Of a DNA stretch of 64,000 nucleotides, positions 13,930 through 30,767 are shown piece by piece; position 1 is the first letter of the stretch; the number at the start of each line of letters is the position of its first letter. A program made the translations under genes and the position numbers. The stretch is from Cryomorpha ignava. GTDB taxonomy: Bacteria > Bacteroidota > Bacteroidia > Flavobacteriales_D > Cryomorphaceae. Below the pieces are notes generated by a model. The model was not told the origin of the DNA, made no database searches, and saw nothing but the letters and a program-made list of their open reading frames with translations. Where the stretch lies: assembly GCF_010686655.1 (NCBI RefSeq), contig NZ_JAAGVY010000002.1, positions 124,001 to 188,000 on the forward strand. Direction: 5' to 3'.

Positions 13930-14190
13930 TTTGTCGCTACATCATACGAAATTGTAGTTTAGATTTCTTATTAATGTGAGTGAGGAGAATCACGTCCGAT
14001 ACCGAAATAAATCCCGAAATTTAATTGAGGCAGAATTATTTCTTCCAAACCATAGATTCTACTGAGCTTGATTCTTTTTCAAGGGGTAGCTACTTAAGAA
14101 ATGAGGTACAGCAATTGAAGTCAAACTTATAATTTCAACCCAAAAAGGGATTAGTGGTTAAGTGAAAATATAATACTATGTTTGAACATA

Positions 14191-15198
14191 ATGACACAGA
14201 GAAAATATAAGGTTTTAGAAATTTGTGCTGGTGCGGGAGGTCAGGCACTTGGCTTAGAGGATGCTGGCTTTGATCACAGTTGTTTAGTTGAAATTGAAAA
14301 ACTCGCATGTGAAACGTTGAAATTTAATAGGCCTGATTGGAATGTGGTTGAATTGGATGTCAAGCTGTTTAGCGCAGAGGATCTAAAAAATATTGATTTA
14401 CTTGCCGGTGGGGTTCCTTGTCCTCCTTTTTCAATTGCCGGAAAACAGGAAGGAGAAGACGATGAGCGTGATTTATTTCCTCAAATGATAAGGTTGGCAA
14501 AAGAATGTGATCCTAAAGCTATTCTTATTGAGAATGTAAAAGGCTTACTAAGTAAAAAATTCGATAATTATAGGTATAATATTGATAATCAATTTTATAA
14601 ATTGGGTTATAGAGGGAGATGGCAATTGTTGTACTCATCGGACTTTGGTGTTTCTCAACTTAGACCTCGTGCTGTATATGTTGCGTTTAAGCAGGAGTAT
14701 ATTGATTATTTTCAATGGCCGCAGAAACTTAATAAATTGCCAGTTTCAGTGGGCGAATTGTTACACGAGGAAATGTCTGCCAATAAATGGAAGCTTTCTA
14801 ACAATTGGAAAAACACAGCTAATAGTATTGCACCTACATTAGTTGGTGGCTCAAAAAAACATGGAGGCCCTGATCTTGGCCCTTCAAGGGCAAGAAAAGC
14901 CTGGGCGAAACTAGGAGTTAATGGTTCTAGTTTAGCTGATAGTGCCCCACAAGAAGATTTTGATGGCCCTCCTAGGTTGACCGTTCAGATGGCTGCCCTT
15001 GTTCAGGGTTTTCCCGCAAGCTGGAGATTTATTGGACGTAAAACTGCAGCGTACCGACAAGTCGGTAACGCTTTTCCGCCGCCAGTTGCTAAACATATTG
15101 GAATTCAAATTATTTCAGCTCTAAATAAAGAAAATAAAAATGAATGGTCGCACAAAAGAGAAAAGGTGCTCGAACTAAACTTCGAGAGTATTTCTTGA
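14191..15198 (+). CDS. DNA (cytosine-5) methyltransferase of a type II R-M system
   Basis: A protein of about 335 residues with the ordered m5C methyltransferase motifs. These are motif I (ICAGAGGQALGLEDAGF) for S-adenosylmethionine, motif IV GGVPCPPFS with the catalytic Cys near residue 77, motif VI ENVKG, motif VIII QLRPRAV, a target-recognition region (about 170-275), and motif X RQVGNAFPPPVA. I prefer the ATG at 14191 to an upstream TTG at 14182. Its 3' end overlaps the HNH gene by 55 bp in another frame. It should protect host DNA from the partner nuclease. The recognition sequence cannot be read from the protein. Confidence 0.92.
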   Translation: MTQRKYKVLEICAGAGGQALGLEDAGFDHSCLVEIEKLACETLKFNRPDWNVVELDVKLFSAEDLKNIDLLAGGVPCPPFSIAGKQEGEDDERDLFPQMIRLAKECDPKAILIENVKGLLSKKFDNYRYNIDNQFYKLGYRGRWQLLYSSDFGVSQLRPRAVYVAFKQEYIDYFQWPQKLNKLPVSVGELLHEEMSANKWKLSNNWKNTANSIAPTLVGGSKKHGGPDLGPSRARKAWAKLGVNGSSLADSAPQEDFDGPPRLTVQMAALVQGFPASWRFIGRKTAAYRQVGNAFPPPVAKHIGIQIISALNKENKNEWSHKREKVLELNFESIS

Positions 15199-15725
15199 AC
15201 AATATTGGAAAAATTCTGAATTCTGATGAGTTAAGAGAAGTTGCTGGTATTAGTGAGTGGGCGAGACGAATTCGTGAATTGAGAAACGAAGAAGGTTTGA
15301 ACATTCTTACCCATAATGATCGAAGCGATTTGAAACCTGGACAATATATTTTGGTTACTTCGAAACCTTTACCAGCATTTGAGCGAGGTATTTCCAAAGA
15401 AACAAGAGCATTTGTGTTGGATAGAAATGGATTCACCTGCCAAATGTGCGGAGTTGCGGAGGGTGAACCACATCCATACGACAATAACAGAAAGACTCGT
15501 TTGCATATTGGCCATATAGTTGATAAATCAATGGGTGGAATGGATGAAGCAAATAATTTAAGAGCAATTTGCTCGCTATGTAATGAAGGAGCCTCTAATC
15601 TGACCTTGAATAGACCTAGTACTATAAAATTGATTGCGCAAGTGAGAAGAGCATCAGCAAATGATCAACTAGACATTCTAAAATGGTTAATTCAAAAATT
15701 TCCCAATCAATCAAGAAAAATATAG
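15144..15725 (+). CDS. HNH restriction endonuclease, partner of the m5C methyltransferase
   Basis: A 193-residue protein. Residues 1-85 look like a winged-helix domain (L-N-S-D-E-L-R-E-V-A-G-I-S-E-W-A-R-R-I). Residues 90-170 are an HNH nuclease with a zinc site from C-Q-M-C (about 99-102) and C-S-L-C (about 143-146), and the catalytic block HIGHIVDKSMGG. The winged-helix plus HNH build is seen in restriction enzymes beside m5C methyltransferases. The ATG at 15144 lies inside the methyltransferase gene, which would couple nuclease translation to methylase translation. I infer from position and fold that it cuts the same site the methylase modifies. Confidence 0.82.
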   Translation: MVAQKRKGARTKLREYFLNNIGKILNSDELREVAGISEWARRIRELRNEEGLNILTHNDRSDLKPGQYILVTSKPLPAFERGISKETRAFVLDRNGFTCQMCGVAEGEPHPYDNNRKTRLHIGHIVDKSMGGMDEANNLRAICSLCNEGASNLTLNRPSTIKLIAQVRRASANDQLDILKWLIQKFPNQSRKI

Positions 15726-19672: not shown

Positions 19673-19894
19673 GTCCGAAATATGTTTTGACAAGTTTTGT
19701 GCTCAGTTTTAATTTACAACTCTTAATGAAAGATAACCAAATCTTAAGGCTTTTCATTTGTCGTTGTGATGAAGTGGCCCGCTATTTTGGGCTTCTTACG
19801 CATCTTGCGGCTTCACCTTGCAGCTAAAAGCTTATCACAACACCATATTCCATTCCAGTTTTTTCCCTATTTTGGCTTTTTAAAGTCACTTCGA

Positions 19895-21085
19895 ATGCAG
19901 GCTTTCCGCACCTTAAAAGATTTTATTCGCGCTCTGGCAAATAACGAGGCGTTTTTCTCGGCTCTATTTGCTCGGCGAAATGTGAGTATTCGCTATGAAG
20001 ATGCGATGGATTTGCTGGATGGCCGACCAGACAGATTGGCGTTTTTGATTGAGCACGGACTGGTTCAACAAAATGGTGAATTCTTGGAATTGGACGAGCA
20101 GTTTCAAGAATTTTTTGAGCAAATTCTGGAAGTGAATATTGAAGTGAGTACCGCTTATATTCAGGAAAGTGTGGAGAGCATCCAAAGCAATATCACTTAT
20201 TTTCTCAATGAAAACAGCTCTTCGCGAAAGCATCAATATTTGCGGAAAGTAAAAAGCGATTTGCGGAAGCTCTACAAAAATATATGGCGCAATACACTCG
20301 ATTTGCGCCGCAATATTGAAGATACTTACAAAACCGAACCAAACTACAAGATCAAAATTGCCAAGCTGGAACGCTATGATCAAAAAGCTGGCGATATTGA
20401 AAAGTTGATTGCTGTGGTTGAAGATTTATGCTTTGAGAAAGAAAAGCTCTTTTTTATTCGCGCTACCGACGAAGAGCTGAATAGAATAAAGTGGCAATTG
20501 CGAAGTACGTTTAGTGATACCCGCCACCAATTGATTGAAATACAGCGGCAAATAATCAATTATCTGAATCTTGTTCGTCAGCAATCTCTTCTCGTTGAGC
20601 GGCTTAGAAAGGTGAAATTCTTGAAAGACCAGTTTGAACTGAAAGAAAAATCGAATATTACACAAGTTCTCGATAGACGTCATGATTTGATATTTGAAAA
20701 ACGTCCGACCTATCCGCTCAAGCTTTCAATTCGTGAGCTGCAAACCGATTCTGCACGTGAAATTATTGCTGCTGTTTTGGCTAACAAAAAGCAGAAAGCA
20801 CAATTAAAAAGGCAAGTTGCAGATGCATTTACTGCCGGTGAGCTGGAAGCTGAAAAAGATGAAAGTGCTTTTGTAAATATTGATGAAGTGAAGAATAGCT
20901 TTTTGGCTTCGGGACGCGAGCTTTTGGATTTTTTGCTTCAGTACCCCTTGCCGGGAAATATGGATTTTGACGCCAGGCTTACCTTGTATTGCCGCTTGGT
21001 GGCTTTGTTTCCCAATGAAATTGATGTTTCGGAAAATTATGCTTTAAAAAATGGTGTTGAATATGCGATGGCCTATCCAGCCTAA
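19895..21085 (+). CDS. jetA: JetA/MksF-like kleisin of a Wadjet-type condensin
   Basis: About 396 residues from the ATG at 19895 (M-Q-A-F-R-T-L-K-D-F-I). An in-frame ATG at 19766 would add 43 residues that look noncoding, so I reject it. The N-terminal part resembles a winged helix (about 30-75) and the middle is long helices (about 80-290), as in MukF-type kleisins. The kleisin bridges SMC heads in a complex that recognises and cleaves plasmid DNA. The call rests mainly on gene order: jetA, jetB, SMC ATPase and a Toprim protein follow on the same strand. It ends 15 bp before jetB. Confidence 0.72.
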   Translation: MQAFRTLKDFIRALANNEAFFSALFARRNVSIRYEDAMDLLDGRPDRLAFLIEHGLVQQNGEFLELDEQFQEFFEQILEVNIEVSTAYIQESVESIQSNITYFLNENSSSRKHQYLRKVKSDLRKLYKNIWRNTLDLRRNIEDTYKTEPNYKIKIAKLERYDQKAGDIEKLIAVVEDLCFEKEKLFFIRATDEELNRIKWQLRSTFSDTRHQLIEIQRQIINYLNLVRQQSLLVERLRKVKFLKDQFELKEKSNITQVLDRRHDLIFEKRPTYPLKLSIRELQTDSAREIIAAVLANKKQKAQLKRQVADAFTAGELEAEKDESAFVNIDEVKNSFLASGRELLDFLLQYPLPGNMDFDARLTLYCRLVALFPNEIDVSENYALKNGVEYAMAYPA

Positions 21086-21100
21086 CTAAACCAAGAAAAG

Positions 21101-21673
21101 ATGCAAGACCTACCCAGACAAACCACCCGAATTTTTGAGATTCTTAGTAAAGGCTATTTCGTAAATTCCAATAGTAACGACTCCGAACAACGCGAGCTTT
21201 ACACGATTATTGATGAACACAGCGACCAGTTAAAAAGCTACTTTGTACAGATTGGTTTTCAGTTGGAGCAGGGCGACGATTATTTCTATTTTTCCCGAAA
21301 GGAAGACAAAGCCACAATGAGTCGCAAAATTGAAACGGCTTATAAATGGATAGATATTTTGGATTTTTTCAAAACGTTTAATACCGGATTTGCTCCCGGA
21401 TTTCGGTTTTATTCCACCCAAGTAGTTGAAGAAGTGCGGGTAAACGGGCTATTGCGAAACAAACTGAACGATATTGACAAGGGGAAAGGCGTATCTGCCC
21501 GAGACCAGATTGAAAAGATTCTTACACGCATGGAGCGTGAAGGTTTTATTGAGAAAATAGATGATTTTAACGATACCTGGAAAGTGACGGCGGCTTTGCA
21601 TTATATGGAGCAATTGATTCTTGCGCTCGATGTTACTGAAGATGAAACGGATATTAAAGCAGAAAAAAGCTAA
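21101..21673 (+). CDS. jetB: JetB/MksE-like condensin subunit
   Basis: A 190-residue protein with two winged-helix-like regions, the plan of MukE/MksE. Features are L-S-K-G-Y-F-V-N-S near the N-terminus, a central W-I-D-I-L-D-F-F-K-T-F, and a C-terminal I-L-T-R-M-E-R-E-G-F-I-E-K that looks like a wing. It would bind the kleisin and help control the SMC heads. The C-terminal tail is acidic. It lies 15 bp after jetA and is followed after only 3 bp by a DUF1016 gene instead of jetC, which is unusual. Confidence 0.72.
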   Translation: MQDLPRQTTRIFEILSKGYFVNSNSNDSEQRELYTIIDEHSDQLKSYFVQIGFQLEQGDDYFYFSRKEDKATMSRKIETAYKWIDILDFFKTFNTGFAPGFRFYSTQVVEEVRVNGLLRNKLNDIDKGKGVSARDQIEKILTRMEREGFIEKIDDFNDTWKVTAALHYMEQLILALDVTEDETDIKAEKS

Positions 21674-21676
21674 AAG

Positions 21677-22204
21677 ATGAAGTTCACAAATCTCATATCT
21701 GTTATTTCTGAAACGCATTCGTATTTGCAAGCCGAAGCGGTTAATGGTTTAAATAGTGTCTGGATCAGAAAGTTGGATACCAAGGCGCAAGCAGTATTGA
21801 AAAACAAGGAGTTGACATTTGTCAATGACTGTTTTCAATACAATTGCAACGCTGGTAGCGTACATTATGGACGGACACTGAATAGGTTGCTGACTGCTCG
21901 TACTTGGCTTATTGGTTTTTATATTGTGGAGTATGAGCAGAATGGCGAAGACAGAGCAAAGTATGGAGAAAATTTGCTCAAAGCTATTGAAGAGAATCTA
22001 ACCGATCAGAATGATTTTGTGATAAATCAAAGACGTTTGAGAGAATTTCGACAGTTTTATCTTGCCTATCCGCAAATGTGGCGGTCGCTGTCCGCCATTT
22101 TGGAAGTAACATCAATTTGGCGGTCGCTGACCGCCATTTCTGACGAAGCAACCAACATAAACATTCTCCAGTTGCTGACTGGAGAATTCGAAAATACCAA
22201 ATAA
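21677..22204 (+). CDS. DUF1016 N-terminal-domain protein, inserted in the Wadjet operon
   Basis: A 175-residue protein matching only the N-terminal half of DUF1016 (YhcG family): A-R-T-W-L-I-G-F-Y-I-V-E-Y-E, YGENLLKAIEENL and RLREFRQFYLAYPQMW. The C-terminal PD-(D/E)XK nuclease half is absent. The last 40 residues carry a duplicated W-R-S-L-S/T-A-I segment encoded by two near-identical palindromes, then a third palindrome. It lies 3 bp after jetB and 6 bp before a full-length DUF1016 gene. It may be a truncated paralogue or a dedicated adaptor. Function unknown. Confidence 0.7.
   Translation: MKFTNLISVISETHSYLQAEAVNGLNSVWIRKLDTKAQAVLKNKELTFVNDCFQYNCNAGSVHYGRTLNRLLTARTWLIGFYIVEYEQNGEDRAKYGENLLKAIEENLTDQNDFVINQRRLREFRQFYLAYPQMWRSLSAILEVTSIWRSLTAISDEATNINILQLLTGEFENTK
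22079..22187 (+). repeat. Three in-frame palindromes in the DUF1016_N gene
   Basis: TGGCGGTCGCTGTCCGCCA (22079-22097) and TGGCGGTCGCTGACCGCCA (22118-22136) are direct copies 39 bp apart; the second is a perfect 8-3-8 palindrome. ATTCTCCAGT (22163-22172) pairs with ACTGGAGAAT (22178-22187) around a 5-base loop. All three are translated in frame. Confidence 0.85.
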
Positions 22205-22210
22205 ACACAT

Positions 22211-23299
22211 ATGATGGAGAAGGCCTATACTGACTGGATTGAATATCTGAAACAAAAAATTAAATCAGCACAGCTTAAAGCAAGTATTGCTGTAAATGAA
22301 GAGCTATTACGTTTGTATTGGGATATTGGAAAAAGCATAGTTGAGAAACAAGAAGCCTTTGCGTGGGGTAGCAAAATAGTAGAGCAAATGGCTAAAGATT
22401 TAAAAAGAGAATTACCCGATACCCATGGCTTTTCAAGAACGAATTTGTTTGCCATGCGCAAGTTTTATTCGTTTTACAAGCATCAAGACATGGTTCAACC
22501 AACTAATGAACAAATAAAGAATACGGATATTCGAGAAAATATCCAATTAGTCCACCAAGCTGGTGGACAATTGCCAGCAGATAGTATTTTGTGTAAAATT
22601 CCTTGGAGACATCACGTAGCTATCATGAGTAAATGCAGCACTTTAACAGAAGCAATATTCTATATTCAACATACTATACATAACAATTGGAGTAGAAATG
22701 TTTTAGAAATACAGCTGGAGTCAAATTTGATTGAAAGACAAGGAAAGGCACAGAACAATTTTGAACTAACACTACCAAAACCGCAAAGCAACCTTGCTCA
22801 AGAAACTCTGAAAGATCCTTATAAATTTGATTTTTTGACGCTGGAAACGAATGTGCAAGAACTTGACTTAGAACGAAATTTAACAGAAAATATTACCCAA
22901 TTTTTATTGGAACTGGGTAAAGGTTTCGCTTTTGTAGGCAGACAATACCCCTTACAAGTGGGAAATAAGGAGCGCAGACTTGACCTTTTATTTTACCACA
23001 TTAAAATGCATTGTTATGTGGTAATAGATATTAAAATGGGTGAGTTTGAACCCGAGCATGCTGGTAAAATGAATTACTACCTTTCTGCAATAGACAATCT
23101 TTTGAAAACGGAAAAAGAAAACCCAAGTATTGGCATTATTCTGTGCAAGTCCAAAGATAGTTTAGATGTAGAGTACACGCTGCAAGACATGAACAAGCCA
23201 ATGGGAATAAGTGAATTTACATTTAGTGAATTGCCGAAAACGATTAGGCAAAATATGCCCACAGTAGAAGAATTAGAAAACGAACTTAGCAGACTATAA
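22211..23299 (+). CDS. DUF1016 / YhcG-type PD-(D/E)XK nuclease, inserted in the Wadjet operon
   Basis: A 362-residue protein with both DUF1016 parts. The N-terminal helical domain (about 1-95) has L-R-L-Y-W-D-I-G-K-S-I. The C-terminal nuclease-like domain (about 215-350) has DLLFYHIKMHCYVVIDIKMG and E-P-E-H-A-G-K-M-N-Y-Y, giving the Asp and the D-x-K catalytic pattern. YhcG proteins are found with type I restriction loci and other defence genes, and their action is poorly known. The linker (about 105-135) is encoded by two palindromes. It lies 8 bp before jetC, so it is transcribed with the condensin genes. Confidence 0.8.
   Translation: MMEKAYTDWIEYLKQKIKSAQLKASIAVNEELLRLYWDIGKSIVEKQEAFAWGSKIVEQMAKDLKRELPDTHGFSRTNLFAMRKFYSFYKHQDMVQPTNEQIKNTDIRENIQLVHQAGGQLPADSILCKIPWRHHVAIMSKCSTLTEAIFYIQHTIHNNWSRNVLEIQLESNLIERQGKAQNNFELTLPKPQSNLAQETLKDPYKFDFLTLETNVQELDLERNLTENITQFLLELGKGFAFVGRQYPLQVGNKERRLDLLFYHIKMHCYVVIDIKMGEFEPEHAGKMNYYLSAIDNLLKTEKENPSIGIILCKSKDSLDVEYTLQDMNKPMGISEFTFSELPKTIRQNMPTVEELENELSRL
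22525..22568 (+). repeat. Two adjacent in-frame palindromes in the DUF1016 nuclease gene
   Basis: GGATATT (22525-22531) pairs with AATATCC (22538-22544). GTCCACCA (22550-22557) pairs with TGGTGGAC (22561-22568) around a 3-base AGC loop, the same 8-3-8 build as in the upstream gene. They encode the linker between the two domains. Confidence 0.85.
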
Positions 23300-23307
23300 A
23301 CCAATCC

Positions 23308-26300
23308 ATGCGTCAACTCAATAAAATAGTTTTTATAAATTCGGCGACCATTCGCTACCAGGAAGTTTTGCTCGATGGCAATGTGCATTTTATCGGAACG
23401 CAGGGCGTTGGAAAAAGTACCTTGCTGCGCGCTATCCTGTTTTTCTACAATGGAGACACACAAAAGCTGGGCATTCCCCGCGAGAAGAAAATTTTTGCAG
23501 AATACTATTTCCCAAATACCAACTCGTATATTCTTTACGAAGTGGAGCGTGAAACCGGCTCTTTTACCGTTTTGGTAATGCGCAGCGGCGCTGGAGTGGT
23601 TTTCCGGTTTATCGACTCGGCGTACAATCCCGAATGGATATTGCGCGATAATCAGGCACTGGAAAAATGGGGCGACATACGACAGCAGTTAGATAAACTC
23701 GGAATAGATTCTTCAAACCGTGTGGACAGATTGATGGATTACCGCGATATTATTTATGGGAATCCTGCCGTAAATGCAGCCAATCGAAAGTATGCGCTGC
23801 TTGAGAGCAAACAGTATCAGAATATTCCCAGAACTATCACCAATGTATTTTTGAATACCAAGCTCGAAGCCGGGTTTATCAAGGAGACTATTATCCATTC
23901 GCTTAGCGAAGAAGAGTTGGTGATTGATTTGATGACATATCGCCATCACCTGCATGATTTTGAAAAGGAATATGTTGATATTCAAAATTTTACGCAAGTT
24001 AAAACGCAAGATCAAGCCGAAAAGATAATTGCGTATTTCAATCAGATTAATGAGCGGCAAGCGGCACAAGCCATGAGTGCGGCACAACTTGGAAATGCAG
24101 TAAAACAAGCCGAAAAAGAAGCGCAAAGTCAAAAAACGAAACTGGAAATTGCTTTTCGCGAAAAGAACGAAAAGCAGAAGAAGTCTGACGAAAAAGAGAA
24201 ACGGCAGGCAAATCAGGTTTCGCTAATCAGGGGAAGCATAAAAAGTGTTGAAGCCAAAATTCGCGAAGCACAGAAAAAAGAGCGGGAATATAATGAGAAA
24301 GGAATTACAGAAATTCTAAATAGGGTTTCCAAACAAGATGAATGGTTAAATACCGAAAAGCGACTGGGTGAAGAACGCAGTTCGCTTACGGCAAAATTTG
24401 AGAGTATTGAGCAGGCTTTTCAAGTTCGCAAGCAGCAACTTGATAATGGTCTTGATCAACTTGTAAATGAGCAGGAAAAAGCTGGGAACCTGACCAATCA
24501 AGAGTTTCAAAACGAAAAGGAAAAACAAAATAATCTAAGGGAAAGTCAGATTAGCGAGCTGCAGAATTCTCTTGATGAAAAGCTGGAACTAATTCATAAA
24601 CAGCTTGATGTCGAAAATGAAGCGCTGACAAAAATTCGCGAAAAACGAAGCGGCTTAAAAGCAAAAGTTTGGTATGCCGATGAAATTCAAAACTTAAAAA
24701 AAGAAATTTTTCAGGCGGATAAAAAAGCTGACGAAGCAGAAGGGAAAATAGAACTTCACAAAGAAAAAATACGGACATTGAAAGGGGAATGGGAGCGTGA
24801 AGAAGAGCGGTTAGTAACAGCGAAAGAAGTGCATAAAGTAAAATTGGATGATGAGATTAATTCGCTTCAAAACCAATTGGCGTCAACGCAAGCAAAACTC
24901 GACGGATATAAAAATGCCTTGTACGGGTATTTGCAAGAGCACTACCCTGATTGGCAGGAAACTATTGGCAGAATAGCCCGTGAAGACATTCTCTTTAATG
25001 AAGATTTGCAACCCGAGCTAAAGAAAATTAGCGATTTATTTTTTGGACTGGAATTAAAACTGCAACACGTTGATGTGACAGCTAAAACGCTGGAGCAATA
25101 TGAATTGGAAAAGAAAAAGCTGACGGAAGCACTCGAAAAGTCACGAAAAGGATTGGCTCGACTCGATGTAGAGCATATTGCTGATTTAGACAAGCTCACG
25201 AAAAGATTTCGCCCAAAAATAAGGGAGCATAAAGACGCAACCCAAAAATGGGAACTCGAAAAGCAGCAAAGCCAAACCCAAATTGAGAAAAAGAACTTGC
25301 TTCTGGAAGAGCTGGAACAAAAGGCTAACACTGAAAAAGATACCGCACTTGCAAAAGTTGAAACCGAAATTGAAGCCGCAAACGCAAAGGTGAAATTGGT
25401 TTTAAGTCAAGTTGCGGCAGAGAAAAACGCTATTAAGGATGAGATAGAAAAGCTCGAAAAATCTTTTGCCAAGCTTGTCAAGGCATTTGCACAAACCAGA
25501 GATGAGAAGCAAGAAGAAATTGAGAGAATATTTTCTGTAAAGAAAAACGAAATAAAAAGACGAATAGCCGAACTGTTAAAACAGCAAAATGCAAAATTGA
25601 AAGATGCTGGTGCAGATACGGCCAGATTGAACGCCATTGATGCTGAATTGCAAAAAGTAATTTTAGAATTGCAATTTATTTCCGAAAATCAGGAATTGGT
25701 TATTGAATACCGCAAAGACAAACGCGAATTGTTTGATAGAATCCCGGAATTTAAGAAGGAACGTGATAAAGAAAACGGAAAGCTCGAAAATGCGGAAGGT
25801 CGTCTTGATGAACTTGAAAAAGAACACAGAAAAGAGCTCGCTGAACTTTCAAATGACATCAAATTAATTGAAGAGAAAATCAGAAAGTTAAAAGATGGCT
25901 TTGATGAACTTGAGCAATTTTCAAAAAGCGACCTGTTCAAGGACATCGAAACATGGATGGAAGCCGGCGATAAAGCGGGCGATCCGTATGCCATCCGAAA
26001 ACTGATAGATGAAATTCGCGACATTAGCCTAAGCTTAAACAGCTTAAAGGAAAATCTTCGCGACACGATCAACCGGTTTTTAAATCGCTTTTCGGATGCC
26101 AATCTTTTTCATTTCCCTACGTCGCTATCTGATTTGCAGGATTACATGGCTTTTGCCGCCAATCTCAAGGAGTTTATCGACGAAAACAAAATTGCAGAAT
26201 ACCAGCAAAGAGTGGAGCGCAGGTTCGCATCCATATTGAGTTCGGTAAGCAGGGAAACCGGCGATCTGATTAGCCGTGAAGGCGATATTCAAAAAGTGGT

Positions 26301-26982
26301 TTCCAATATCAACCGCGATTTTCGAGAGCGGAACTTTGTGGGTGTAATCCAATCTATGGAATTGCGATTGGAAGATAGTGCAAGTAGGGTTGTGAATACG
26401 CTAAAGCGGATACGTGAATACGAGCAGGAGCAAGGCCATTCGCTGGGCGAACACAATTTGTTCAATGCTCAAAATGGCGACGCAAACAATAAACGCGCAG
26501 TAGAATTTCTAAATCAACTGAATCGTGATATTCTGGAATCGAAACGCGACCGAATTTTACTTTCCGATGCTTTCGAGCTGCGGTTTAGAGTAGTAGAAAA
26601 CGAAAACGACAGCGGATGGGTCGAAAAACTATCGAATGTAGGCTCGGAAGGAACAGATGTGTTGGTAAAAGCAATGATCAATATTCTGTTACTCAACGTA
26701 TTCAAAAACAGTGCTTCACGAAAATTCAAAGATTTCCGCCTGCATTGCATGATGGACGAAGTGGGAAGGCTGCACCCAACAAATGTGCGTGGAATATTGA
26801 AATTTGCAAATGATCGCAACATCCTGTTGATCAATGGATCGCCCGTTGAGCAGGATGCTATGGCGTATCGGCATATTTATGAATTGCGGAAAGACAAGAA
26901 AAGTCAAACCCAAGTGCGCAGGCTTATTACCGTGAGACAACCGACAGAAACGCAACAAACAGAAAACCTGCCTGATGAATAA
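23308..26982 (+). CDS. jetC: JetC/MksB-like SMC ATPase of the Wadjet-type condensin
   Basis: A 1224-residue SMC/MukB-type ATPase. Walker A is GTQGVGKSTLL (about residues 31-41). Residues about 250-900 are long charged coiled coil. The C-terminal head has the ABC-signature-like L-S-N-V-G-S-E-G-T-D-V-L-V-K (about 1108-1121) and Walker B with catalytic Glu in HCMMDEVGRL (about 1145). Wadjet condensins extrude DNA loops and pass small circular DNA to JetD for cutting. The gene overlaps jetD by 8 bp. Both ATPase half-sites look intact, so the motor should be active. Confidence 0.82.
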   Translation: MRQLNKIVFINSATIRYQEVLLDGNVHFIGTQGVGKSTLLRAILFFYNGDTQKLGIPREKKIFAEYYFPNTNSYILYEVERETGSFTVLVMRSGAGVVFRFIDSAYNPEWILRDNQALEKWGDIRQQLDKLGIDSSNRVDRLMDYRDIIYGNPAVNAANRKYALLESKQYQNIPRTITNVFLNTKLEAGFIKETIIHSLSEEELVIDLMTYRHHLHDFEKEYVDIQNFTQVKTQDQAEKIIAYFNQINERQAAQAMSAAQLGNAVKQAEKEAQSQKTKLEIAFREKNEKQKKSDEKEKRQANQVSLIRGSIKSVEAKIREAQKKEREYNEKGITEILNRVSKQDEWLNTEKRLGEERSSLTAKFESIEQAFQVRKQQLDNGLDQLVNEQEKAGNLTNQEFQNEKEKQNNLRESQISELQNSLDEKLELIHKQLDVENEALTKIREKRSGLKAKVWYADEIQNLKKEIFQADKKADEAEGKIELHKEKIRTLKGEWEREEERLVTAKEVHKVKLDDEINSLQNQLASTQAKLDGYKNALYGYLQEHYPDWQETIGRIAREDILFNEDLQPELKKISDLFFGLELKLQHVDVTAKTLEQYELEKKKLTEALEKSRKGLARLDVEHIADLDKLTKRFRPKIREHKDATQKWELEKQQSQTQIEKKNLLLEELEQKANTEKDTALAKVETEIEAANAKVKLVLSQVAAEKNAIKDEIEKLEKSFAKLVKAFAQTRDEKQEEIERIFSVKKNEIKRRIAELLKQQNAKLKDAGADTARLNAIDAELQKVILELQFISENQELVIEYRKDKRELFDRIPEFKKERDKENGKLENAEGRLDELEKEHRKELAELSNDIKLIEEKIRKLKDGFDELEQFSKSDLFKDIETWMEAGDKAGDPYAIRKLIDEIRDISLSLNSLKENLRDTINRFLNRFSDANLFHFPTSLSDLQDYMAFAANLKEFIDENKIAEYQQRVERRFASILSSVSRETGDLISREGDIQKVVSNINRDFRERNFVGVIQSMELRLEDSASRVVNTLKRIREYEQEQGHSLGEHNLFNAQNGDANNKRAVEFLNQLNRDILESKRDRILLSDAFELRFRVVENENDSGWVEKLSNVGSEGTDVLVKAMINILLLNVFKNSASRKFKDFRLHCMMDEVGRLHPTNVRGILKFANDRNILLINGSPVEQDAMAYRHIYELRKDKKSQTQVRRLITVRQPTETQQTENLPDE

Positions 26983-27841
26983 TCTCTCATTGGCAATAGC
27001 CAAGAAATTGCTGATTCTCGAAAATGGCGAAATGCTAACCGGAAGTAGTTTTAATAAAATTCAGCTTGCGAAACTGGAACAAGAAGGCATTGTGGCAATT
27101 CAACGAATTGGACGTACAAAAACACGGGTGCGGCTCAATTCTGAAGCGGGACTTGCGAATTATTTGCGCAACCGGTATCAGATAGAAAATCTTGAAGCTT
27201 ATGTGGAAATGTTGCAGCAGATAGAAATCTCGGGAAGGGAAGCCCAGCAAATGGCGTCAAACACCAAATTGCGAACCAGCAGAACATTCAAAGGCTTTTT
27301 AGTCAATGTAATCAAACCCATAAAGGCCAAACTTCACGGCAAAGAAATTGTAATTGAACCGCGACCCGGAACCTTCACATTTATTCACGATTACGAGAAT
27401 TTTGAGATTGATAAAAAAGTGCTGATAATTGGCATGGAAAATCCCGAAAATTTCAGATTTATAGAGCTACAAGACGCCCTTTTCCCGAAAGGAGAAAAGC
27501 TTTTTTTAAGCCGCTACCCGCAAACCAACGATTTGGTTAATTGGCTAAGCACGATTCCTAATTCCTATTTGCATTTTGGAGATTTTGACCTGGCTGGAAT
27601 CTCAATTTTTGAAAATGAATATTCGAAAAAGTTGGGCGAGAAGGCATCTTTTTTTATTCCTGATGATATCGAAAAGCGAATTGCTGAAAAAGGTAATCGC
27701 GATTTGTATAATAAGCAATATGTAAAGTATAATACTTTAAAATCATCGGATACACGCTTGCAGGCTTTGATTGATTTGATTCATGCCAACAAGAAAGGGC
27801 TGGAGCAGGAAGCGTTTATTGGGAATGGAATGGATAGGTGA
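26975..27841 (+). CDS. jetD: JetD-like Toprim nuclease of the Wadjet system
   Basis: A 288-residue protein. The N-terminal half looks like a winged helix plus arm (about 20-120). The C-terminal half carries the Toprim metal motif in HFGDFDLAGISIF (about residues 200-212), with the D-x-D that JetD uses to cleave DNA, and an upstream Glu in V-L-I-I-G-M-E-N. It is shorter than the roughly 380-residue JetD proteins I know, mainly at the N-terminus. Its start overlaps jetC by 8 bp. A diverged second copy of its last 61 codons lies about 1.2 kb downstream (28871-29056). Confidence 0.78.
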   Translation: MNNLSLAIAKKLLILENGEMLTGSSFNKIQLAKLEQEGIVAIQRIGRTKTRVRLNSEAGLANYLRNRYQIENLEAYVEMLQQIEISGREAQQMASNTKLRTSRTFKGFLVNVIKPIKAKLHGKEIVIEPRPGTFTFIHDYENFEIDKKVLIIGMENPENFRFIELQDALFPKGEKLFLSRYPQTNDLVNWLSTIPNSYLHFGDFDLAGISIFENEYSKKLGEKASFFIPDDIEKRIAEKGNRDLYNKQYVKYNTLKSSDTRLQALIDLIHANKKGLEQEAFIGNGMDR

Positions 27842-27877
27842 AACTAATTTTTCTCACTGGTGATGATTTCTCAAGTT

Positions 27878-27976
27878 GAAGAATCTGAATTTCTTGCAAC
27901 TTTACGTGTGCGCGACACCAAAACTGGTAATTGTACTTTTGGTGGCTACTCTTAGATAAACGTGAAGAAATAGAGT
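27878..27976 (+). pseudogene. Scrap of an AlbA_2 ATPase gene
   Basis: About 100 bp that align by eye with 29821-29924 inside the intact AlbA_2 gene, sharing for example GGTAATTGTACTTTTGGTGG. It has lost several bases and the rest of the gene. It sits directly after the jetD 3' flank, where a complete copy sits after the second jetD fragment. Confidence 0.8.
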
Positions 27977-28006: not shown

Positions 28007-28837
28007 ATGAAAAAAAATGTAGAAATAATTGTTCAGGGATTTACGATAAAAACCTTTAAAAGTAATTTTGGCGATTATATTTCATTGACTGCCATTGCAA
28101 GAAACAAAAATGCAAATGAGCCTAAAGATGTAGTAAAAAACTGGATGCGTTCTAAATCTACCATTGAATTTTTAGGACTTTGGGAACAAATAAACAATAC
28201 AAGTTTTAAAGGGGTCGAATTCGACTCCTTTAAAAATGAAGCGGGATCCAATGCTTTTACTTTATCTCCCAGTAAGTGGATTGAAAATACAAATGCCATC
28301 GGAATTATATCAAAACAAGGCAAAAATGGAGGCACTTATGCCCATAAGAATATTGCTTTTGAATTTGCGCCTTAGGTTAGTTCCGCTTTCAAACTCTATT
28401 TGATAAAAGAGTTTCAACGATTAAAAGAAGTTGAAAGTGATAGGCTTAAACTACAGTGGAATTTTCAAAGAATACTTGCCAAAGTAAACTACAAAATTCA
28501 TACGGATGCTATTAAAGCAAAACTTATTCCCATAACATTAAGTAGCAAACAAACTTCTATTATTTATGCCAATGAGGCTGATGTGCTTAATATGGCACTG
28601 TTTGGAAAAACAGCAAAGCAGTGGCGGGACGAGAATCCTAATGAAAAAGGAAATATAAGGGATTTTGCAACTATTCAGCAATTGGTTGTTTTGTCTAATC
28701 TTGAAAGCATAAACGCAATGCTTATTCATCAAAACGTATCACAAAAGGAGCGATTGATACAGCTCAATTCATTGGCAATTACACAAATAAAATCACTGGT
28801 GGAAAATACAACGATCAAGAAATTAGAAAATGAATAA
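28007..28837 (+). pseudogene. KilA-N domain protein interrupted by one amber codon
   Basis: The frame reads 122 residues, a TAG at 28373-28375, then another 153 codons in the same frame. Before the stop it has the KilA-N pattern G-D-Y-I-S-L-T-A-I-A, V-V-K-N-W-M-R and A-F-T-L-S-P-S-K-W-I. After it come F-K-L-Y-L-I-K-E-F-Q-R-L-K-E and a C-terminal ORF6N/RhuM-like part. At the stop, family members have Trp in the block F-A-S-W-(V/I)-S, so a TGG to TAG change explains it. KilA-N proteins are phage or defence-island DNA-binding proteins. It may be dead or rely on readthrough. Confidence 0.8.
28203..28234 (+). repeat. 32-bp near-perfect palindrome inside the KilA-N gene
   Basis: Arms 28203-28218 and 28219-28234 match at 15 of 16 positions with no loop, centred on GTCGAATTCGAC. 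It is translated as F-K-G-V-E-F-D-S-F-K within the KilA-N domain. Confidence 0.85.
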
Positions 28838-29056: not shown

Positions 29057-29261
29057 AACTATTTTCTTTCACAGGTGATTGATTCTCGAGTCGTTATAAC
29101 CAATAAGATCTTATAATAATTCCAATTTGTATATATTTATGGCTTAGCTTTAAGAAAGATAAAATCTCATAGAGCCGGTAATACTCAAAAGTCTTACCAT
29201 ATTCCTAAGCTGATTAAGGAGTGCAAGGCAATTGCGCTCAGATCCAAAAAACTACGATGTA

Positions 29262-30767
29262 ATGACGAAAGGCGAGCTTATCCATAAAATAAACGACCTG
29301 GAGTGGGAAGATTTTGAAGTGAAAGAAGCGAAGGCTGAACTCCCTAAATCTGCCTGGAGTACAGTAAGTGCTTTTGCCAATACGTCGGGTGGATGGCTCG
29401 TATTTGGCGTGAAGCAAATTGGCAGAAAATTTGAAATTCAGGGAGTAAGGAATCCTGAAAAAATTGAACAGGATTTTCTCGCAACTCTTCGCAGCAAGCA
29501 AAAATTTAATGCAGCGACGAACGCAATATCGGTTAAGCATGTATTTGATGATAAAACTGTTATTGCTTTTTACATTCCGGCTTCGGACAAAAAGCCGATC
29601 TACTATAATACGCAATCAAACACTTTTATAAGAAGGGGGAGTGCTGACCAAAAAGCAACATCCGAAGAAATTGATGCCATGTACCGAGAACAGACTTTTG
29701 GCACTAAATCATCGGAGATAGTTCCGCGTTCATCCATAACTAATCTCAAAATAAAATCTGTAAAGGAATACCGTGATTATATGGCGCGTTTTAATCCGGA
29801 TGTAAGCTATAATCGGTTTGAAGAATCTGAATTTCTTACCAAGTTACGCGTACTCGACACCGAAACGGGTAATTGTACTTTTGGTGGTTTACTATTCTTT
29901 GGTAAACGCGAAGAATTAGAGCGATTTTTCCCCGATTTCCGTATTGATCTATTGCAAATTCCTGGGACTTCATACAGGAATGCACTATCTCGCTATACCT
30001 ATCGCTTGAATGAAGATGAGTATGAAAATCTTTGGGAGTGCTATTTCGCTTGTTTTAAAAGACTCAGAACAGAAGTAGATGTGGAGTTTAAGCTTTCTAC
30101 CGAGGGGTTTGGGGAAGAACTTTCTCCAGGATTAAAAGCCGTTAGAGAAGCTCTGATTAATATGTTGATGCACGCGGATTATTTTTCGCCGGCTCATTCG
30201 CGTATTCGTATTTTTTCCAATCACATTGAATTTTATAATCCGGGCGGATTGCCAAAACCACTCGAAGAATTGAAATTGAAAGACTTGTCAATTCCGAGAA
30301 ATCCCGTCTTGGCGAAACTTTTCAGGATGGTGAAATTGGCAGAAAATGCCGGTTACGGCTTTGATAAAATAGAATCAAATTGGTATTCTTACAATAAATC
30401 GGCACCAGAATACGTACTCGATTTTGACTCAATTATTTTAAAATTGTACACCAAACCCAAAGCCGTTTCCAGTGAACAGGCCGAGAATGATGGAAAGATG
30501 TCGGAAAGATGTCGGATTGATGTCGGAACGATGTCGGAAAGAATTCGGGAAGTTGTCGGAAAGAATGCAGATGCCGTATTTTTGATTTTAGCATCAAATC
30601 CGCATATATCCGCCGAGAGAATAGCGAATGAAATAAATAAATCGCAAAGAACAATAGAGCGTGAAATAGAGAAATTACGGTCTGCAGGCTTTATAGAACG
30701 TGTAGGGCCGAAACTCGGTGGGTATTGGAAAATAAAAACGGGTGAATCATCAAAAGAAGTGGAGTAA
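29262..30767 (+). CDS. AlbA_2 / HATPase_c_4 ATP-binding regulator with C-terminal winged helix
   Basis: About 501 residues from the ATG at 29262; a TTG at 29232 would add 10. The N-terminal AlbA_2 (Schlafen-like) domain (about 10-135) has FEVKEAKAELP and A-N-T-S-G-G-W-L-V-F-G-V. A GHKL-type ATPase region (about 280-390) has R-E-A-L-I-N-M-L-M-H-A-D-Y and N-P-G-G-L-P. The C-terminus (about 430-500) is a winged helix (I-N-K-S-Q-R-T-I-E-R-E-I). Such proteins are usually annotated as putative DNA-binding or helicase-related and are frequent in defence islands. The linker before the winged helix is encoded by an 11-bp tandem repeat. Confidence 0.8.
   Translation: MTKGELIHKINDLEWEDFEVKEAKAELPKSAWSTVSAFANTSGGWLVFGVKQIGRKFEIQGVRNPEKIEQDFLATLRSKQKFNAATNAISVKHVFDDKTVIAFYIPASDKKPIYYNTQSNTFIRRGSADQKATSEEIDAMYREQTFGTKSSEIVPRSSITNLKIKSVKEYRDYMARFNPDVSYNRFEESEFLTKLRVLDTETGNCTFGGLLFFGKREELERFFPDFRIDLLQIPGTSYRNALSRYTYRLNEDEYENLWECYFACFKRLRTEVDVEFKLSTEGFGEELSPGLKAVREALINMLMHADYFSPAHSRIRIFSNHIEFYNPGGLPKPLEELKLKDLSIPRNPVLAKLFRMVKLAENAGYGFDKIESNWYSYNKSAPEYVLDFDSIILKLYTKPKAVSSEQAENDGKMSERCRIDVGTMSERIREVVGKNADAVFLILASNPHISAERIANEINKSQRTIEREIEKLRSAGFIERVGPKLGGYWKIKTGESSKEVE
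30497..30562 (+). repeat. Six-unit 11-bp tandem repeat inside the AlbA_2 gene
   Basis: The units are GATGTCGGAAA, GATGTCGGATT, GATGTCGGAAC, GATGTCGGAAA, GAATTCGGGAA and GTTGTCGGAAA, contiguous at 11-bp spacing. Eleven is not a multiple of three, so the encoded peptide repeats every 11 residues (M-S-E-R-C-R-I-D-V-G-T, then M-S-E-R-I-R-E-V-V-G-K). Confidence 0.9.

Follow-up and report, generated by a model that had tools for sequence, protein, structure and literature searches.

Separately acquired DUF1016 passengers probably opened the jetB/jetC junction of a Wadjet-like operon in Cryomorpha ignava

The locus analysed here raises the question of why two genes of the DUF1016 family should lie inside a Wadjet-like condensin operon, between jetB and jetC. 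It is found in a stretch of 64,000 nucleotides of Cryomorpha ignava (contig NZ_JAAGVY010000002.1, positions 124,001 to 188,000), referred to below as the window, and the two genes are called D1 and D2. A preliminary description left two answers standing, that the pair could serve a Wadjet variant as a second effector or as a modulator, or that it could be a passenger insertion which kept the operon intact. In this study, we provide evidence that D1 and D2 do not look like a Wadjet component; the survey of relatives and the clades of the DUF1016 genes support the passenger insertion, and we consider it quite probable that the junction was opened by two separately acquired DUF1016 passengers, DUF1016 and RhuM genes being single-gene mobile passengers.

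Six plus-strand open reading frames, spaced by 15, 3, 6 and 8 bp and then joined by an 8-bp overlap, occupy positions 19895-27841 of the window, and all frames and spacings agree with those described before. The order is jetA/mksF (19895..21085, kleisin-like, 396 aa), jetB/mksE (21101..21673, 190 aa), D1 (21677..22204, a short DUF1016_N gene of 175 aa), D2 (22211..23299, a full DUF1016 or YhcG gene of 362 aa), jetC/mksB (23308..26982, an SMC ATPase of 1224 aa) and jetD/mksG (26975..27841, a Toprim-like nuclease in its short form of 288 aa). Pfam agrees with the earlier MksE-like, DUF1016_N, full DUF1016, SMC and Toprim identities. The jetB product matches MksE (E 2.8e-42, 145.3 bits, cut-off 27), and the 3' end of the gene is without the jetC overlap of its relatives. 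The jetC product matches DUF3584 (E 6.6e-63, 213.2 bits, cut-off 31) and carries the Walker A motif GTQGVGKST, with residues invariant across seven aligned sequences, and a conserved HCMMDE motif. The jetD product matches DUF7281 (38.1 bits, cut-off 27) and, below the cut-off of 22, JetD_C (18.7 bits), its residues E155-N156, G202-D203-x-D205 and E277-Q278-E279 being invariant in five aligned sequences.

The jetA product has no Pfam match above cut-off, and its kleisin-like identity is upheld by relatives and by remote structural matches. In nine relatives, the gene directly upstream of jetB, of 396-413 aa, can be aligned with most or the whole of it, and these alignments back the start at 19895, though the frame extends without a stop back to a GTG at 19766. 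With the AlphaFold2 model (pLDDT 77.5, pTM 0.44), Foldseek places MukF, MukEF or MukBEF chains at ranks 1-6, MukF first (best E 7.9e-5, TM-scores of 0.2-0.3 indicating remote likeness), and an E. coli JetABCD chain, 8q72_E, at rank 7 (E 6.1e-3); in VIA-align generic helical bundles dominated, MukF chains among them, and only the Foldseek ranking was used. Profiles of jetC and jetD, and D2, gave no convincing relative among sequences of the PDB, a single-protein jetC query found no relative on viral contigs, and the Jet models of PADLOC match the window genes weakly. Given the kleisin, MksE, SMC and Toprim matches, all four subunits are present, which identifies the outer four as a jetABCD (MksFEBG, Wadjet) operon of Bacteroidota, as the preliminary description had assigned it; by analogy with the studied systems, its products would restrict plasmids.

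For the junction itself, 90 jetC loci were compared. Beside that of the window, they comprise one locus that turned up when 395 genomes of the phylum were screened, the eight best of 19 matching plasmid records, and the best 80 of 469 relatives from named genomes, some contigs of which end within the operon. The two genes overlap or lie no more than 30 bp apart in 84 of the 89 operons holding both, and in 70 of the 89 the overlap is 17 bp long, reading ATGAGATACCTGAATAA or a close variant. In the window, jetB is not directly succeeded by jetC, 1634 bp separating them. The uninterrupted junctions of relatives serve as empty sites for this insertion, and it is for jetB/jetC alone that empty sites are shown; among the phylum genomes searched, jetC was found in one besides the window's own, and among 40 nearer relatives in no further genome, thus no close genome with an empty site was available.

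Long inserts of differing content were found between jetB and jetC in the remaining five operons, those of the window, L030, L032, L049 and L076. L030 holds, within 527 bp, one DUF1016_N gene of 165 aa with no nuclease domain in Pfam, and since this gene is the sole open reading frame of 60 aa there, that insert, and that one alone, can be said to be without a transposase. The inserts of L032 and L049 are about 8 kb long and contain RhuM and REase-ARP nuclease genes (Pfam) and others, by eye nucleotidyltransferase-like, phosphoesterase-like and TPR genes. Parts of them are duplicated internally, and the jetB/jetC overlap recurs in several copies; the two inserts are similar and probably of one lineage. 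HicB/HicA- and GNAT-looking genes, again named by eye, fill the junction of L076. For the preliminary description, DUF1016 confined at this position to this genome would have spoken against its reading. DUF1016 does recur between jetB and jetC, in L030, yet it is rare, at two of 89 operons, and the recurrence of unrelated genes at the same place points to a repeatedly used insertion site, not a co-evolved partner.

Other junctions of the operon are opened as well. A gap of more than 150 bp separates jetA from jetB in three of 87 operons, with RhuM in L058, a PDDEXK_3 gene of GxxExxY type in L041 and no open reading frame of 60 aa in L020; jetC and jetD are more than 150 bp apart in four of 76, among which the gap of L025 is no insert, jetC itself being split there. 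Genes of several families enter jetABCD junctions. The PDDEXK_3 gene (L041:1767-2285) is flanked by 35-nt repeats of 89% identity. Four loci (L007, L008, L013 and L014) have jetABC without a nearby jetD match and are in this respect MksBEF-like; relatives beside them have jetD.

Are D1 and D2, then, one acquisition or two? D1 matches DUF1016_N (5e-11), with no nuclease domain found by Pfam, and D2 matches both DUF1016_N (5.8e-39) and YhcG_C (1.5e-61). E217, D258 and K275 of D2, which we take to be catalytic residues, stand at columns that do not vary among 90 DUF1016 proteins of full length; the AlphaFold2 model of D2 is of low confidence (pLDDT 43). A quick tree built from 107 DUF1016 proteins places the L030 gene, D1 and D2 in three different supported clades, and their nearest BLAST rows also differ. 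Because of these separate clades, the three genes probably arrived independently. By eye, D1 ends within the palindromic part of the family described below, and it is probably a decayed passenger; D1 would be the earlier arrival and D2 the intact one.

Evidence of how such genes arrive comes from the repeats around them. In L030, the 17-bp jetB/jetC overlap is present twice with 16 of 17 bp identical, at the end of jetB (one base different) and, 544 bp later, at the start of jetC; the DUF1016 gene lies between both copies, and jetB and jetC are both whole. At least 24 bp of the overlap region are repeated in L049. Imperfect copies number three in L032, and the middle one closes its RhuM gene, whose product ends NNEIPE where JetB proteins end NEIPE (NEILE in the JetB of L032 itself). 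The repeat copies in these inserts, taken together with the single uninterrupted copy in 70 relatives, show a target duplication at jetB/jetC.

The comparison was extended to 150 bp outside and 60 bp inside each gene end, after dropping genes without 150 bp of flank (6 of 111 DUF1016, 3 of 40 RhuM and 128 of 668 control genes). Direct repeats scoring at least 20 flank 11 of 105 DUF1016 genes (Fisher p 3e-7) and 4 of 37 RhuM genes (4e-4), whereas the other genes of these loci have them in 3 of 540 cases. Both families are flanked by repeats, frequently copies of gene ends, more often than other genes are. In 8 of the 11 DUF1016 cases the repeat is a copy of a host gene end, so that with L030, whose repeat scores 16, nine DUF1016 loci have a copy at a host gene end; at a tenth, L194, the copied end is that of a neighbouring RhuM passenger. 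The host ends concerned are the 3' end of a class II, asnS-like tRNA synthetase (L145 and L137), a thiH-like gene named by eye (L171), the 3' end of a carB-like gene (L141), the start of a glycosyltransferase (L165, where the first 16 residues of the DUF1016 protein resemble the glycosyltransferase start) and the start of the next gene (L185, L169 and L222). L137 and L145, from one genus and at the same gene, may reflect a single insertion event; no empty site was obtained for it, a third genome of the genus (G536, 65% complete) having no match to the pattern.

L194 is a tandem of RhuM and DUF1016 in which one sequence occurs three times, its middle copy at the end of RhuM; this locus was counted once under each family. 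The repeats of L131, L157 and L195 are not tied to a recognised host gene end; L251, among the four RhuM cases, consists of tandem RhuM pieces with no target repeat, and L199, among the control repeats, is a pair of similar neighbouring genes. Repeat lengths run from about 15 to 100 bp. Ordinary transposases leave fixed short duplications, and repeats of such lengths are thus a poor fit to them. A further locus (L128:3680-6541, holding the same RhuM gene as L233 and overlapping DUF1016 pieces) has a DUF1016 start, NKKDFFPPR, which resembles SKKEFFPPRP, the start of a gene of 843 aa lying downstream of the adjacent RhuM gene, and this resemblance suggests putative stacked insertions at one gene start.

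A second character shared by the two families is a palindrome within the gene. D1 contains a palindrome with one mismatch at 22079..22097 (plus strand, peptide WRSLSA), the first of two tandem copies, of which the other is perfect with 8-bp arms (22118..22136, WRSLTA), and a further perfect one with 10-bp arms near its 3' end (22163..22187); D2 contains a perfect palindrome with 8-bp arms at 22550..22568 (VHQAGGQ). In both genes, a perfect palindrome falls within the variable portion of DUF1016_N. Stems of at least 12 bp occur in 38 of 111 DUF1016 and 12 of 40 RhuM genes against 4 of 668 controls, and stems of at least 10 bp in 47, 23 and 11, respectively; an earlier, smaller sample gave 20 of 67 DUF1016 genes against 2 of 314 controls for stems of at least 12 bp. 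It was a RhuM gene that stood out most strongly among the first controls in the repeat and palindrome tests, before the family was recognised. The 33-nt palindrome of E. coli K-12 yhcG (L255:9828-10955, at nt 378) has 15-bp arms, and six hand-picked DUF1016 genes on plasmids of cyanobacteria, proteobacteria and actinobacteria show stems of 8-14 bp, making seven of seven with E. coli; the single Aeromonas RhuM gene examined has no palindrome.

The position of the palindrome is kept and its letters change in pairs. Of the 23 RhuM genes with a stem of at least 8 bp, 20 have the palindrome centred on one common alignment column. Among 31 RhuM genes (members under 200 aa dropped, reducing 40 to 33, and one gapped and one empty row taken out), 12 of 13 pairs are changed on both sides, doubly changed cells number 100, where shuffles give 29.7 and none of 500 comes as high, and the covariation score of 0.646 compares with 0.159 or less once partners are slid; G-U cells make up 7 of 403. 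In DUF1016, the centre lies five codons before the SW motif, and 30 of the 111 genes, being without this motif, were left out. Among the other 81, the share of paired cells is 75.0% at the palindrome centre and 30-39% when six neighbouring centres are taken instead, double changes affect 283 cells against 117.5 in shuffles (maximum 141), and 57 of 972 cells are G-U; some DUF1016 genes have a second, more upstream palindrome site, not counted apart. Since random synonymous recoding (100 recodings) pairs at most 53.5%, the protein sequence alone fails to explain the DUF1016 palindrome. DUF1016 and RhuM families carry a covarying in-gene palindrome, and the few G-U pairs suggest that it is a site at the DNA level.

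The settings in which these genes sit are diverse. A DUF1016_N match is present in 65 of 149 genomes of the class, and the immediate neighbours in 60 DUF1016 loci, 116 proteins in all, extend from restriction-modification to metabolic genes (25 of 137 families listed). The commonest families are N6_Mtase (8), Methylase_S, Eco57I and phage integrase (5 each), and the other families listed have 1-4 members each, including tRNA synthetase, carbamoyl-phosphate synthase, lyase, MeaB and ThiF. On an Aeromonas plasmid the order is hsdM-DUF1016-hsdS-rhuM-hsdR, three of its four junctions being overlaps of 4 bp; the starts of DUF1016 and hsdS have 15 bp in common. One DUF1016 gene (L160:5605-7339) has a similar 119-aa gene on each side, perhaps of the 23S-IVP kind, and two of the 116 neighbours match the 23S-IVP family, their loci not being told apart. 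The window's genome has eleven RhuM and five DUF1016_N matches; several of the RhuM matches are truncated or bear stops, thus RhuM and DUF1016 genes seem to turn over quickly there.

How else could D1, D2 and their relatives be read? Same-direction, tight packing in the operon, the conserved nuclease residues intact in D2 and a DUF1016_N gene at the same junction of L030 are what one would expect if D1 and D2 were functional additions to Wadjet, D2 as a second nuclease and D1 as a helper or antidote, acting on plasmids held by JetABC. The second effector or modulator of the preliminary description is nevertheless very unlikely, given its occurrence in two of 89 operons, the three different clades, the L030 and D1 products without a Pfam nuclease domain, the other genes at the same junction in L032, L049 and L076, and the many unrelated neighbourhoods of the family; on rarity and separate clades we set it aside. 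A defensive role of another kind deserves more weight, though we regard it as rather unlikely, namely that the genes of both families are small and act on their own in defence or against mobile elements, being kept for the benefit of the host, for which defence operons serve as convenient expression sites, the repeats arising by illegitimate recombination in gene transfer. Restriction-modification genes are indeed the commonest neighbours and PADLOC has DUF1016 models under the name PDC-S02, but several copies are located at genes for an asnS-like tRNA synthetase or a glycosyltransferase, or at thiH-like and carB-like ones, and the truncated or stop-bearing RhuM matches of the window's genome fit poorly with genes so kept.

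The palindromes, too, could have arisen without function, as a by-product of replication in which template switching perfects imperfect palindromes; Watson-Crick symmetry with few G-U cells is what such correction at the DNA level would give. We hold this to be unlikely, because template switching alone does not explain palindromes at one or two fixed places per family, the pairing exceeds that of synonymous recoding, all seven DUF1016 genes examined outside Bacteroidota have palindromes, and long ones are rare in control genes. That the whole arrangement is a chimera or an assembly artefact is conceivable for a draft genome of 149 contigs, but the window lies inside a 295-kb contig with frames intact, and the same kind of insertion is seen in L030, itself a metagenome bin, so that the chance of this is negligible.

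Passengers acquired separately therefore seem the best account of the junction, against which several observations weigh. The three junctions of the window have no target repeat above noise (Smith-Waterman scores 8-10); the jetB end in the window has diverged, and the insertion may for this reason be old. A strong flanking repeat is absent from 94 of 105 DUF1016 genes and present in three of 540 controls, and with integrase as 5 of 116 DUF1016 neighbours some copies may have entered with other elements. In the tree, the L030 gene is on a long branch of unsure placement, and D1 and the L030 gene fill less than half of the columns. The frame of D1 is open and its G+C content at third codon positions (0.426) is close to that of the jet genes (0.403-0.419; D2 0.32), which could mean long residence or use, and the tight packing of both genes is as functional members would have it. 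What weighs against covariation of the palindrome is that, for RhuM, 459 of 500 shuffles attain the observed count of further pair types and 17 of 500 that of pairs changed on both sides, the other three measures being attained by none.

As for the process, a passenger would land in or beside the end of a host gene, and this end, some 15-100 bp, would then be present on both sides, sparing both host genes by target-end duplication; inside an operon, the passenger would profit from its transcription. The cut letting the gene copy itself in might be made by the passenger's own PD-(D/E)XK nuclease, such as that of D2, in a possibly homing-like way, and the palindrome might serve as a DNA site which the protein of the passenger itself recognises, most simply as a dimer, for self-control or self-recognition. 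The fuller proposal, that DUF1016 and RhuM are transposase-free mobile cassettes with a fast-changing symmetric site which they read themselves, and that they copy into gene ends and duplicate them, is offered tentatively, as a possibility about which some doubt prevails.

Around the operon, what remains of a gene of AlbA_2/SLFN type directly follows jetD (27876..27975, plus strand) and resembles the intact AlbA_2/SLFN plus HATPase gene at 29232-30767, 1.3 kb beyond, a sign of gene turnover beside the operon. A KilA-N domain gene (28007-28375, Pfam 51.9 bits) follows right after the operon; KilA-N genes are often seen with phages. At 14182-15725, 4 kb upstream of the operon, a C5 DNA methylase overlaps a gene weakly matching type II restriction enzymes (PADLOC 37.7 bits), and from these matches the two are probably a type II restriction-modification pair.

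In the open PMC literature, which holds few subscription journals and preprints, no paper was found with both Wadjet and DUF1016, none that reports an in-gene palindrome or target-end duplication for DUF1016, and none that joins RhuM with hsdR, hsdM and hsdS. For YhcG or RhuM with palindromes, nothing relevant was found among the matches listed that were examined, including PMC7967276 and PMC5771137, and the RhuM term also matches unrelated words. Thus jetABCD and DUF1016 are already known, and the palindrome and target-end duplication are likely to be new with respect to that literature. The passenger reading would explain the presence of DUF1016 and RhuM genes inside restriction-modification and other operons, where they should not be called subunits by guilt of association. 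If the cassette proposal is true, single genes would have a route to enter operons harmlessly, defence operons above all, and the palindrome, present also in E. coli K-12 yhcG, would be a simple experimental handle on an uncharacterised family of several phyla.

Among known systems, Wadjet or MksBEFG comprises, according to PMC10123090 and PMC10586767, a kleisin, a KITE protein (MksE), an SMC ATPase and a Toprim protein in the order mksFEBG. The window has the same four subunits in the same order, but its usually overlapping jetB-jetC pair is split by two DUF1016 genes, its jetD is short (288 aa) and its PADLOC Jet matches are weak. In the family DUF1016/YhcG (PDC-S02), D2 is a full member with the E, D and K residues and D1 an N-terminal-only member. 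RhuM (PF13310) is likewise found at jetA/jetB or jetB/jetC in relatives, with an in-gene palindrome at a fixed site and target-end repeats in some loci, but it is another Pfam family and absent from the window's operon. Free-standing homing endonuclease genes are single nuclease genes that lie at gene boundaries and recur at one site without a transposase of their own. The DUF1016 passengers resemble them as single nuclease genes at gene boundaries that recur at one site and, so far as the L030 insert shows, bring no transposase; they differ in their many targets and in the variable length of the duplicated target end, and homing is invoked here by analogy. Piggybacking is the term used in PMC4316617 for a DUF1016 gene within a conjugative element, where it replaces a gene most others carry, and RhuM and DUF1016 are both entries in a table of transferred genes in PMC10782964. 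PMC4316617 also describes the Rickettsia palindromic elements, mobile repeats of palindromic DNA which insert in many places and within coding sequence leave the frame unbroken. The DUF1016 and RhuM palindromes also lie in coding sequence with the frame unbroken; they are not repeats scattered through the genome, stems of at least 12 bp occurring in only 4 of 668 other genes, but are tied to fixed sites of two families and vary from gene to gene.

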